From the NCBI RefSeq assembly GCF_003259375.1, contig NZ_QLLN01000003.1, forward strand, positions 486,955 to 550,954: a DNA stretch of 64,000 nucleotides. Direction: 5' to 3'. The number at the start of each line of letters is the position of its first letter. Positions within the stretch are counted from its first letter, which is position 1. Below are positions 54,169 through 56,972 of the stretch, one piece after another. A program made the translations under genes and the position numbers. Below the pieces are notes generated by a model, which was not told the DNA's origin, made no database searches, and saw only the letters and a program-made list of their open reading frames with translations. The stretch comes from Arenibacter echinorum. GTDB taxonomy: Bacteria; Bacteroidota; Bacteroidia; Flavobacteriales; Flavobacteriaceae.

Positions 54169-54549
54169 TTACTGTATTTTAATTGCGGTTCCTGTGGATT
54201 TTTTGGTACTGCCCACAACGTTATATTCAAATGTATACGAATTATCGCTAGTGAACAAAATCTTCATATGAATTGATTTTTCTTCTGCCATGTTCTTGGG
54301 ATGTAGTTTCTTAACGATATACTCGCAATCATTTATCCACCTAACTGAAGAGGTATCCACTTTCTCTTGGAAATAGTCCAATTCAATACTGTCGTTCCTA
54401 ACAAATGTTGTAGTTAGTTCTTCCCCGTTGATCTGCGCATTAAAGGAAAATTTTCCGGTTTTAAAATCGGCGCAATTGCGTTCAGGTTGATAACAAGAGC
54501 ATACCACCAGCATGAGCAGTATTACCCCAAAAGTCATGTTTTTTGTCAT
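54169..54549 (-). CDS. Small lipoprotein, unknown function
   Basis: 126 residues with lipoprotein signal (LLMLVVCSC) followed by a compact beta-rich domain (FKTGKFSFNAQINGEELTTTFVRNDSIELDYF, TSSVRWINDCEYIVKKLHP, YTFEYNVVGSTKKSTGTAIKI). Close relatives in Flavobacteria are often mislabelled DNA topoisomerase IV; nothing here supports that. Possibly co-transcribed with terC (gap of two bases). Confidence 0.7.
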   Translation of the reverse strand: MTKNMTFGVILLMLVVCSCYQPERNCADFKTGKFSFNAQINGEELTTTFVRNDSIELDYFQEKVDTSSVRWINDCEYIVKKLHPKNMAEEKSIHMKILFTSDNSYTFEYNVVGSTKKSTGTAIKIQ

Positions 54550-54599: not shown

Positions 54600-54977
54600 T
54601 CAACTTCCTTTTTCCGAATAAGATTTAAAACTTCCGTCAGAATAAAATATAATAACTTTATCTATGGCCTGAGTCCGTGGTATGGTATCACCAGGCACTT
54701 CACTCTTGACCACTACTTTGGACTCCACCTGCATGTCAGGGGAGACCTTGGCCTTCTTAGGAAAAGAACCCTTACCAAACAACAGCCAATACAGATCAAC
54801 CTCAGGAAAGGAGGCAACAACCTTAAGTACAAATTCCAAACTGGGTTTGTTTCTGCCGGCTAAAAGATGGGAGATACTAGATCGCTGAACACCTATTGTA
54901 TCCGCAAACACAGAAGCGGATAAATCATGGAACTTCAAAATTTGATCTATTCTATTTATAAAATCAGCAGTGTTCAC
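54600..54977 (-). CDS. XRE-family helix-turn-helix regulator
   Basis: 125 residues, GTG start. HTH about residues 8-60 (ILKFHDLSASVFADTIGVQRSSISHLLAGRNKPSLEF), then a Lys/Val-rich linker and a short C-terminal segment (AIDKVIIFYSDGSFKSYSEK). Two dyads of the TTTACA-nn-TGTAAA type lie over its own -7 box and start codon, and two more stand before the M14 peptidase gene on the other side of the 302-base gap. This is the layout of a self-repressing regulator that also controls the peptidase. Confidence 0.85.
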   Translation of the reverse strand: MNTADFINRIDQILKFHDLSASVFADTIGVQRSSISHLLAGRNKPSLEFVLKVVASFPEVDLYWLLFGKGSFPKKAKVSPDMQVESKVVVKSEVPGDTIPRTQAIDKVIIFYSDGSFKSYSEKGS

Positions 54978-55005
54978 AATTGTAAATTTTAATTACAAAA
55001 GTAAT
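54973..55005 (-). promoter_or_regulatory. Putative operators and promoter of XRE gene
   Basis: Dyad 1, TTCACAATTGTAAA (54973-54986), covers the GTG start; dyad 2, ATTACAAAAGTAAT (54992-55005), covers the minus-strand -7 box TACTTTTG (55003-54996). Centres are 19 bases apart. Binding at both would block transcription and translation start, fitting autorepression. Regulator assignment is inferred from position. Confidence 0.6.
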
Positions 55006-55194
55006 TATTTTACGCAAGATTCTAAACATAAACATCAACTATAATTGCAATATATATTAATCTAAAACTTTAAATAACTATAGTATATAAATTGACTGGT
55101 AGTAAAATGTAATTTCATAATAGACAAAGCATATTTCACGGTCAAATGCCCAAAACCTTTCCATAATCTACTGTTATAAACAACTTATCATTGT

Positions 55195-55228
55195 TTACAT
55201 TTGTAAATTATATAATTTACAAATGTAA
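55195..55228. promoter_or_regulatory. 34-bp perfect palindrome, operator upstream of M14 peptidase
   Basis: Bases 55195-55211 are the exact inverted complement of 55212-55228. Each arm is itself a near-dyad: TTTACATTTGTAAA (55194-55207) and TTTACAAATGTAAT (55216-55229), centres 22 bases apart. It ends 13 bases before the -7 box of the peptidase promoter and so covers the -33 region. The same half-site occurs at the XRE promoter. Strong candidate operator. Confidence 0.7.
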
Positions 55229-55241
55229 TTTATTTTGAAGT

Positions 55242-55249
55242 TACCTTTG
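55242..55249 (+). promoter_or_regulatory. -7 promoter element for M14 peptidase gene
   Basis: TACCTTTG matches the Bacteroidota consensus. Start of transcription near 55256 supports the ATG at 55280 and excludes the upstream in-frame TTG at 55235. Confidence 0.7.
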
Positions 55250-55279: not shown

Positions 55280-56407
55280 ATGCCATTAAATTATAAGGAT
55301 ATAAAGGAATTAACGATAAAAGGCAGATACGTTACCGATAAGGACATTGACCCATTTCTAAATAATGTGGCCAAAGATTTTACAATTCAATCCGAAGGAT
55401 TATCGGTAAAAGGACTATCTATAAAAAGTATAGTACTGGGTAAAGGGGAATTGAAAATTTTGATGTGGTCCCAAATGCACGGGAACGAATCCACTACTAC
55501 AAAAGCTGTTTTGGATTTAATAAATTATTTAAAATCGGATTCAGATCTGGCCAGGTTCATCTTAATGGAGTGCACCCTTAAAATTGTCCCCTTATTAAAT
55601 CCGGATGGAGCTATGGCATACACTAGGGTCAATGCAAACGGCGTAGATTTAAACAGGGATGCTCAGGATCGAACCCAACCCGAAAGCATGGTGTTAAGAA
55701 AAATATACGAAGATTTTAAACCCGATTATTGTTTCAACCTACATGACCAACGTACTATTTTTAATGTGGGAAATACCCCAAAACCCGCAACAGTTTCTTT
55801 TTTGGCTCCTGCCCATGACCCTGAAAGAAGTATCTCCAAAACCAGAGGAATTAGCATGCAGTTGATTGTGGCAATGAACGAAGAATTGCAAAAGTTCATT
55901 CCGGGCCAGGTAGGGAGATATGATGACGGGTTTAACAGCAACTGCGTTGGCGATACATTTCAAATGTTGAATATACCCACCATATTATTTGAGTCGGGTC
56001 ATTTTCCTGGAGATTATGACAGGGAAGAAACAAGAAAATATATTTTTACTGCTATGCTCAAAGCCATTGAGGTAATTTCAAAGCGAACCATTGACCAATA
56101 CAACAGGGATTCCTATTTTGATATTCCTGACAACAACAAATTATTTTTTGATATAATAATAAGGAATATCCACCTTCTTGATTCCAAGTATGAGCTGGGC
56201 AATAGTGCAGCTATCCAATTTGTAGAAACTTTGGTTAATGGGAAGATTGAATTTAAAGGCAAATTGGAAGAAATAGGGAATGTAGGAGGCAAATTTGGTC
56301 ACAAATCGTATAATTGCCTATATTCTAAGGACTTAAAGGAGCTTAAAAACAATTCCTACCTGATGGACCTACTCCGAGCTACTGGAATATTTTTTCAAAA
56401 AATCTAA
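55280..56407 (+). CDS. M14-family zinc carboxypeptidase-like protein
   Basis: 375 residues from the ATG at 55280. Zinc motif HGNE (His67, Glu70), third ligand His155 in NLHDQRT, catalytic Glu238 in LFESGHFPGDYD, and NPDGAMAYTRVNANGVDLNRD in between. No signal peptide, so it acts in the cytoplasm, unlike secreted digestive carboxypeptidases. Possible substrates are peptidoglycan peptides or modified amino acids as in the succinylglutamate desuccinylase branch; the exact one cannot be told. Under strong dyad operators; followed by an Lrp/AsnC regulator. Confidence 0.88.
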   Translation: MPLNYKDIKELTIKGRYVTDKDIDPFLNNVAKDFTIQSEGLSVKGLSIKSIVLGKGELKILMWSQMHGNESTTTKAVLDLINYLKSDSDLARFILMECTLKIVPLLNPDGAMAYTRVNANGVDLNRDAQDRTQPESMVLRKIYEDFKPDYCFNLHDQRTIFNVGNTPKPATVSFLAPAHDPERSISKTRGISMQLIVAMNEELQKFIPGQVGRYDDGFNSNCVGDTFQMLNIPTILFESGHFPGDYDREETRKYIFTAMLKAIEVISKRTIDQYNRDSYFDIPDNNKLFFDIIIRNIHLLDSKYELGNSAAIQFVETLVNGKIEFKGKLEEIGNVGGKFGHKSYNCLYSKDLKELKNNSYLMDLLRATGIFFQKI

Positions 56408-56492: not shown

Positions 56493-56972
56493 ATGGGTAA
56501 AGTAAAATTAGACGAAATAGACCACCAAATTCTGGACATGTTAATTGACAATACCAGAACACCGTTTACCGATATAGCAAAAAAGCTTCTGATATCCGCA
56601 GGAACTGTTCATGTTCGTGTAAAGAAAATGGAGGAAGCTGGCATTATCAAGGGATCATCACTAACATTGGATTATGTTAAACTTGGGTATGCCTTTATAG
56701 CCTACGTTGGAATATTTTTGGAAAAAACGCATCAGACGAAGTTTGTGTTGGAGCGATTAAATCAAATTCCAAATGTTACTGTAGCCCATATTACCACAGG
56801 GAAATTTAATATCTTCTGTAAAATACGGGCAAAGGACACCAATCATGCTAAAAATATTATTTTTAAAATAGATGATATTGATGGTATCGATAGGACAGAG
56901 ACCATGATTTCATTGGAAGAAAGCATCAACGACAAAAAACGTCTTATGCACACCATCTTCAACGAAATGTAA
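56493..56972 (+). CDS. Lrp/AsnC-family transcriptional regulator
   Basis: 159 residues. N-terminal winged HTH (about 5-62; DHQILDMLIDNTRTPFTDIAKKLLISAGTVHVRVKKMEEAGII) and C-terminal RAM ligand-binding domain (about 75-150; FIAYVGIFLEKTHQTKFVLERLNQIPNVTVAHITTGKFNIFCKI). Such proteins sense amino acids and control their metabolism. Follows the M14 peptidase by 85 bases with its own -7 box and a strong terminator. Target unknown; the peptidase neighbour may supply its ligand. Confidence 0.92.
   Translation: MGKVKLDEIDHQILDMLIDNTRTPFTDIAKKLLISAGTVHVRVKKMEEAGIIKGSSLTLDYVKLGYAFIAYVGIFLEKTHQTKFVLERLNQIPNVTVAHITTGKFNIFCKIRAKDTNHAKNIIFKIDDIDGIDRTETMISLEESINDKKRLMHTIFNEM

Follow-up and report, generated by a model that had tools for sequence, protein, structure and literature searches.

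In the Gal repressosome of Escherichia coli, GalR is bound at two operators with HU between them, and the Lac repressor also acts through looping. Phage repressors and SinR use tandem operators and regulate their own expression. To our knowledge, the site architecture of only a few Bacteroidota regulators is known. Here, we analyzed a 64,000-nucleotide stretch of the Arenibacter echinorum genome (the window), in which the gene of a small XRE/HTH_3 regulator (XRE) lies divergent from that of an M14 zinc carboxypeptidase-like enzyme (M14). The proposed arrangement resembles the Gal repressosome and Lac looping in its two operator sets flanking a putative bend site, in its dependence on helical phase, and in the tight repression that would result, the loop here being proposed from sequence alone. 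It differs in that Gal and Lac use repressors of the LacI family, whereas this locus has an XRE/HTH_3 protein and a divergent gene pair. In addition, the operators here contain -7 promoter boxes and a start codon, and the XRE has no known ligand domain.

The XRE shares its HTH fold with the lambda-, P22-, and 434-type phage repressors and with SinR, another HTH_3 protein. Matches to its sequence and in Foldseek included SinR, 434 Cro, P22 c2, and DdrO, with a best Foldseek E-value of 0.004. However, unlike these repressors it lacks an S24 or other large C-terminal domain, in the place of which it has a short beta-hairpin tail after a disordered linker, and its locus is chromosomal and conserved across the family.

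As given in the accessible part of a published report (PMC8565304), non-canonical LexA proteins of the Bacteroidetes, which carry an S24 domain, bind GGA-N5-TCC or CTAA-N5-TTAG. Judged against that part, the XRE is similar in having an HTH_3 domain and palindromes upstream of its own gene in the same phylum, but differs in the absence of S24, in its motif, and in the genes concerned. The literature searched, which took in little of the subscription literature, gave no description of the locus or the operator, or of such a mechanism in the phylum.

The XRE-M14 locus of Arenibacter echinorum

The XRE (125 amino acids; 54600-54977, minus strand) contains an HTH_3 domain above the Pfam cut-off (PF01381, 27 bits; cut-off, 23). 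In its predicted model, a linker of low confidence joins the N-terminal HTH to a C-terminal hairpin (residues 107-121). The layout is an HTH, a variable disordered linker, and a conserved beta-hairpin tail, I-x-R-I-V-I-F-Y-x-D-G-S-F-K. Among 41 sequences, S33, S36, R42, N43, P45, and S46, as well as F111, Y112, D114, G115, and F117 of the tail, were invariant or nearly so. Neither the Pfam search nor the predicted model revealed a recognized ligand domain. As the part outside the HTH that is under clear constraint, the tail is the first candidate for dimerization or signal contact. Trimming of the tail by M14 is a possible signal; the tail is also kept in four genomes without an adjacent M14 (G086, G022, G055, and G035), and its conservation thus does not require M14. 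Two other assignments were rejected. An S24 repressor such as LexA or CI does not fit a protein of 125 residues with a short hairpin tail and no S24 domain in Pfam, and the score for a HigA antitoxin was 20.9 bits against an NCBIfam cut-off of 47.7. In a first search, XRE matches were present in 113 of 120 family genomes, among which the match in G033 (E-value, 2e-4) was not an orthologue; a later search found matches in 362 of 397 sampled family genomes, covering 224 of 237 genera.

M14 (375 amino acids; 55280-56407, plus strand) scored 44.2 bits for PF00246 (cut-off, 21.6). H67, E70, N125, R126, H155, and E238 were invariant in 50 sequences, and we take these to be the metal and catalytic residues. 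By PF00246 and the conserved HxxE, N/R, H, and E, the protein is assigned to peptidase family M14. No signal peptide was apparent by eye. In the predicted model (pLDDT, 94.7), the catalytic domain matched 3l2n with a Z score of 27.9. Its fold within residues 14-272 is the same as in 3l2n, 4b6z, 3k2k, and 4a37 (Z, 27.2-27.9; 18-21% identity), and further C-terminal beta strands (about residues 284-345) extend beyond the part that matches known bacterial M14 structures. The enzyme was rejected as an MpaA murein tripeptide amidase, for which it scored 22.2 bits against an NCBIfam equivalog cut-off of 157. A second M14 paralogue with 38% identity occurs in the same genome (contig 3, 601981-602907, in a 507-amino-acid open frame), with no operator within 2 kb upstream. 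M14 relatives (about 37% identity) also occur in two very small genomes, on contigs of 0.34 and 0.63 Mb, and neither an XRE nor an operator was detected next to them. Retention of M14 in very small genomes without an adjoining XRE or operator suggests a housekeeping role for the enzyme.

M14 is followed by an Lrp/AsnC-type regulator (56493-56972, plus strand), for which PF13404 and PF01037 were both above their cut-offs. The Lrp-type protein is unusually conserved in the family loci, at 59-97% identity and mostly above 80%, while M14 is at about 40-62%. Downstream of XRE lies a small lipoprotein-like ORF (54169-54549), which had no Pfam or NCBIfam match at an E-value of 0.1. Among 112 loci (111 fetched plus the window), the fetched DNA contained M14 in 104, Lrp in 107, and the lipoprotein-like gene in 101, several of the misses being contig ends. 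XRE with divergent M14 and Lrp is near-universal in the sampled family. In some lineages without an adjacent M14, at five loci, XRE is followed by a gene named by eye as dihydroorotate dehydrogenase-like.

The initial annotation of the window had described a 34-bp perfect palindrome and two further dyads, with paired sites 22 and 19 bases apart, and all of these were borne out by the sequence. The exact inverted repeat at 55195-55228, TTACATTTGTAAATTATATAATTTACAAATGTAA, is the sole perfect palindrome of at least 16 bp in the 64 kb scanned; the longest palindrome in each of 200 equally long first-order Markov sequences was 14-24 bp. The dyad at 54973-54986, TTCACAATTGTAAA, contains the GTG start codon of XRE (54977-54975). 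The dyad at 54992-55005, ATTAC-AAAA-GTAAT, contains the XRE -7 box TACTTTTG (TAnnTTTG; 54996-55003, minus strand). When the window was scored with an operator matrix built from the loci of relatives, the family loci being its training set, three strong operators were found at a threshold of 11 in the whole 64 kb, all in the XRE-M14 intergenic region. These putative operators, to which no strand was assigned, are O-start, a 16-bp dyad over the XRE start codon (54972-54987; score, 18.1), O-M2, the XRE-ward half of the palindrome (55193-55208; score, 20.9), and O-M1, the other half, which covers the M14 promoter at its -33 region (55215-55230; score, 15.1). The center of O-M1 is 23 bp from that of the M14 -7 box TACCTTTG (55242-55249, plus strand), and relatives carry a further operator at that box.

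The 34-bp palindrome is two 16-bp operators, GTTTACAwwTGTAAAC. It was rejected as a unit: the nearest relative has two operators in the same orientation and no long palindrome, and what is conserved, as judged from this comparison, appears to be the operators. Thus, the dyads of the initial annotation are real, while its palindrome is no special element. The same annotation had assigned four sites to one XRE regulator, which gained comparative support, with the fourth site, around the XRE -7 box (54991-55006), being weak (score, 8.0). Relatives carry a -7 operator, of which this weak dyad is probably a decayed version; no site scoring at least 12 matched it in the four nearest Arenibacter relatives. 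At the position of the relatives' XRE ATG, which in most of them lies within the operator, the window has ATT followed by GTG (54975-54980), so that the start codon has changed and the dyad has been kept. The window's own copy of the arrangement is somewhat decayed: it is without a strong -7 operator on either side, and its mid-spacer element, described below, is weak and without the IHF core.

Operators in relatives and in natural deletions

Counts were made in the 108 of 112 loci with at least 400 bp upstream, the 4 shorter ones being left out. An operator scoring at least 12 was present upstream of XRE in all 108, so the dyads that the initial annotation had expected in orthologous loci are conserved there. 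M14-side operators occurred in 104 of the 108 loci (two or more in 92), an XRE -7 operator in 73, and a start-codon operator in 91. Neighboring operators were mostly 24 bp (71 cases) or 34-36 bp (100 cases) apart. A set of named relatives comprised 80 loci and the window; of the 79 that had enough DNA, all carried M14-side sites and M14, 77 carried Lrp, 69 a start-codon site, and 45 a -7 site. In total, 446 sites scored at least 11 compared with 4.25 in first-order shuffles, with a matrix trained on the same family loci. In held-out sets, 35 sites against 0.55 shuffled were found in other families of the order (16/20 loci) and 47 against 0.52 in the class (19/25 loci). The exact 16-mer had 10 copies in 9 of 120 genomes, all 10 at the XRE locus. 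Among loci from other families of the order with M14 nearby, 8/13 had an operator within 250 bp upstream of M14. In one family (f5), in which M14 lies 0.9-3.2 kb away, an operator was located about 50 bp upstream of the M14 match in 3/5 cases.

In the accessible part of a study of Flavobacterium psychrophilum, TAnnTTTG is given as the sigma-A -7 consensus (PMC9723704). This motif pointed into XRE in 68 of 74 XRE -7 operators and into M14 in 3, and into M14 in 69 of 81 M14-proximal operators and into XRE in 3. The middle operators had no strong -7 bias (13 one way and 22 the other, of 74). The core of the start-codon operator was AATG, containing the ATG itself, in 78/92. Thus, the operators appear to double as Bacteroidota -7 boxes, mostly reading into the gene that they serve.

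Five genomes without XRE (G050, G108, G033, G064, and G167) retain M14 followed by Lrp. In the first four, no site scoring at least 10 was found within 600 bp of M14 (best scores, -1.8, 0.3, 6.3, and 4.0); G167, which has an XRE-tail-like fragment, had one borderline site at 10.4. Among XRE-bearing loci, 103 of 104 had a site within 600 bp of M14. Conversely, the four genomes without an adjacent M14 retain XRE and operators. Of these, G022 has kept a full M14-side operator set (-282, -258, and -224), although the next gene found is Lrp, about 670 bp from XRE. An operator was present beside XRE even in genomes without any M14 match, for example, in G127, G141, G129, G217, and G164. A case pointing the other way is G216, whose M14 and XRE lie on separate contigs: no operator was found within 2 kb of that M14. 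Two M14 contigs without a detected XRE, in G095 and G163, had one operator-like site each (15.4 and 13.4); they begin less than 420 bp from M14 and were left out of the deletion count, as was G067, with XRE and M14 on two contigs. In three genomes (G003, G041, and G058), neither XRE nor M14 was matched. Overall, the operators were gone or nearly gone with the loss of XRE and were kept with the loss of M14.

The intergenic DNA is A+T rich (79% in the spacers) and the operator core resembles a -7 box, so the palindromes could be chance products, terminators, or by-products of promoters rather than protein sites. We find this hardly credible in view of the shuffle controls and held-out sets, the loss of the operators together with XRE, and the middle sites that are free of a strong -7 bias. 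Control by XRE of itself and of the divergent M14, as the initial annotation had proposed, gains comparative support from the presence of operators at both genes, their loss with XRE, and their overlap with the -7 boxes of both genes in most relatives. The direction of control could differ between the two genes. Lambda CI activates at PRM, and with several operators upstream of the M14 -7 box, XRE might activate M14 in the same way while repressing itself. However, in most relatives the M14-proximal operator contains the -7 box, which is a repressing position, and M14 is retained in genomes without XRE and operators; we therefore regard activation as very unlikely.

Searches outside the locus were also made. 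In 120 family genomes, the 14-mer core occurred 150 times, 79 of them at the locus, compared with 42 occurrences of a reversed-pattern control in the whole genomes. The 71 off-locus cores are thus somewhat in excess over the control, and other XRE targets are possible. Of 20 off-locus sites examined, 13 were inside ORFs and 7 between them, and 4 of those 7 share one context. In the window's genome, 15 core-like places comprised 8 inside ORFs and 7 between, 2 of the latter being the XRE locus. At four loci (L168, L178, L181, and L187), a 14-bp core at about positions 2470-2560 separates two divergent genes that were named by eye as thioesterase-like and hydrolase-like, and a conserved AATACAAA follows the core; this is either a second target or only a -7 box. 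A near-operator (score, 15.9) in the window's genome, at position 1500 of locus L164 and 25 bp upstream of a gene named by eye as acetate kinase-like, may be due to chance.

Helical phasing and the mid-spacer element

The spacing between the M14-side and XRE-side operators, for which we took the middle operator on the M14 side and the -7 operator of XRE as end points, varies by increments of about 10.5 bp. This was absent from the initial annotation, which did not consider phasing between the two ends of the intergenic region. In 88 loci, the distances were 190, 199-202, 208-214, 221-225, 232-235, and 243 bp, with none between. A second set consisted of 86 new loci, many from one genus (101 fetched, minus duplicates and short ones). 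Of the 57 distances obtained in this set, 55 fell no more than 2.5 bp from the series 213.5 plus multiples of 10.5, as did 42 of the 44 outside the main class. To control for kinship, tips were paired along the tree with non-overlapping paths. In the first set, 19 of 21 pairs differing by at least 4 bp differed by near-multiples of 10.5 in one draw, and the near-multiple fraction averaged 0.88 over 300 draws (chance, about 0.5). With both sets combined (143 tips), the median draw was 23/29 (p = 0.0005) and the worst was 21/29 (p = 0.006). The operator spacer had a near-multiple fraction of 0.88 and a mean cosine of 0.59. As controls, the gap from M14 to Lrp gave a raised fraction of 0.67 (chance, about 0.5) and a mean cosine of 0.09, and the gap from XRE to the lipoprotein-like gene gave 0.46 and -0.13. 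The phasing count comprised 145 loci; the window was outside it, since it has no strong -7 operator. Two operator sets with a conserved helical phase, a feature of DNA-looping repressor systems, are therefore present. Phasing of A-tracts in the spacers gave a mixed signal, with z scores of 6.5 at 9.5 bp, 3.7 at 10.5 bp, and 3.2 at 11.5 bp, and of about 0.9 at 10 bp, -0.4 at 11 bp, and -2.1 at 12 bp.

XRE might bind its two clusters independently, each promoter being blocked locally without interaction between the clusters or a loop. In most relatives, each cluster overlaps its own -7 box, and contacts between neighbors might be all that the short, fixed spacings of 24 and 34-36 bp inside the clusters serve. 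Under such plain local repression, however, one would expect neither a long spacer that varies in steps of about 10.5 bp nor the retention of M14-side operators without an adjacent M14 (G022 and G086), and we consider it unlikely.

At about 138 bp upstream of XRE, the spacer contains a further conserved element, the third at this locus, with the sequence T.t.t.TCAgt..tTTAaa....tTTAt.TaAAgt.ttaatTtAa. Of 268 loci, 244 scored above 3.7, the 99th percentile for shuffled sequences, with a model trained on the same loci, and the register of the element was unambiguous in 129 confident cases (median lead, 31 bits). The window has a weak copy (55056-55101, minus strand; score, 7.4) from which the core TCAR-N4-TTR is absent; the four nearest Arenibacter relatives scored 21.0, 22.9, 13.0, and 15.4. 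The IHF consensus is given as WATCAANNNNTTR in the accessible part of one report (PMC5963220), and the core of the element resembles it on sequence comparison: TCAR-N4-TTR was present in 94 of 136 elements and the strict IHF consensus in 21 of 136. Two HU/IHF-family proteins are encoded in the window's genome. Three loci without an adjacent M14 had high scores for the element (G086, 25.1; G022, 25.2; G055, 19.7), and the fourth, G035, had a low one (-5.6). None of the five XRE-less loci had it in the XRE orientation (-6.6, -14.2, -4.9, -1.9, and -13.0); on the opposite strand of G167, it scored 7.4.

This conserved IHF-like element in the middle of the spacer is phased to both sides. Among independent pairs, 26 of 27 were in phase for the distance between the element and the M14-side operator (p = 6e-8), and 8 of 9 for the distance between the element and the XRE -7 operator (p = 0.014). 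Because no anti-correlation was seen between these half-distances, a slip of register does not account for the phasing. The phasing could also come from a protein at the element touching both promoters, with the XRE dimers not meeting. The element could be an activator or Lrp site facing both promoters, with XRE only modulating and the phasing reflecting activator geometry; the phasing of both half-distances to the element agrees with this, as does the linkage of Lrp in 107 of 112 loci. However, the XRE-orientation element is absent from the five XRE-less loci, in which M14 and Lrp are still there, and its core fits the IHF form in 94 of 136. We hold an activator or Lrp site to be distinctly improbable.

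A looped repressor model and its meaning

Taken together, we consider it probable that XRE is an autoregulated repressor and that a phased, bent loop of DNA serves to silence both its own gene and M14. The support is comparative and comes from the operators, their loss with XRE, their overlap with promoters, the phasing, and the third element; from these we infer binding by XRE, repression over activation, looping, and a bending protein. In this model, XRE would be a local repressor with one dedicated locus, and its dimers would bind GTTTACAwwTGTAAAC in two clusters, one over the divergent M14 promoter and the other over the XRE promoter and start codon. In most relatives the -7 box lies within the operators, so bound XRE would exclude sigma-A RNA polymerase from both promoters. 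The clusters lie about 180-240 bp apart, in fixed helical phase to each other and to the mid-spacer element. Given this fixed phase and an element resembling an IHF/HU bend site, a bent loop probably brings the XRE dimers at the two clusters together. The loop would provide tight, self-limiting repression, and a fall in XRE activity would let M14 rise, perhaps together with the Lrp gene.

The initial annotation had further pointed to an inducible response linked to peptides or amino acids. This gained no support here: the XRE is without a recognized ligand domain, and the operators are kept without an adjacent M14. The fuller reading, which we place just on the likely side, is an ancient repressosome of the whole Flavobacteriaceae, in which XRE, operators at the -7 boxes and start codon, and an IHF/HU bend site, with 145 loci in register, would form a closed circuit of negative feedback gating a cytosolic M14 and possibly Lrp.

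The XRE system is widespread (362 of 397 genomes) in this large family, whose members live in water and soil, has apparently a single dedicated locus, and offers natural deletions of each partner. If the model is true, a conserved pair of looped promoters in Bacteroidota would have been recognized from indel phasing alone, and conserved indel phasing could reveal DNA loops directly from genome sequences.
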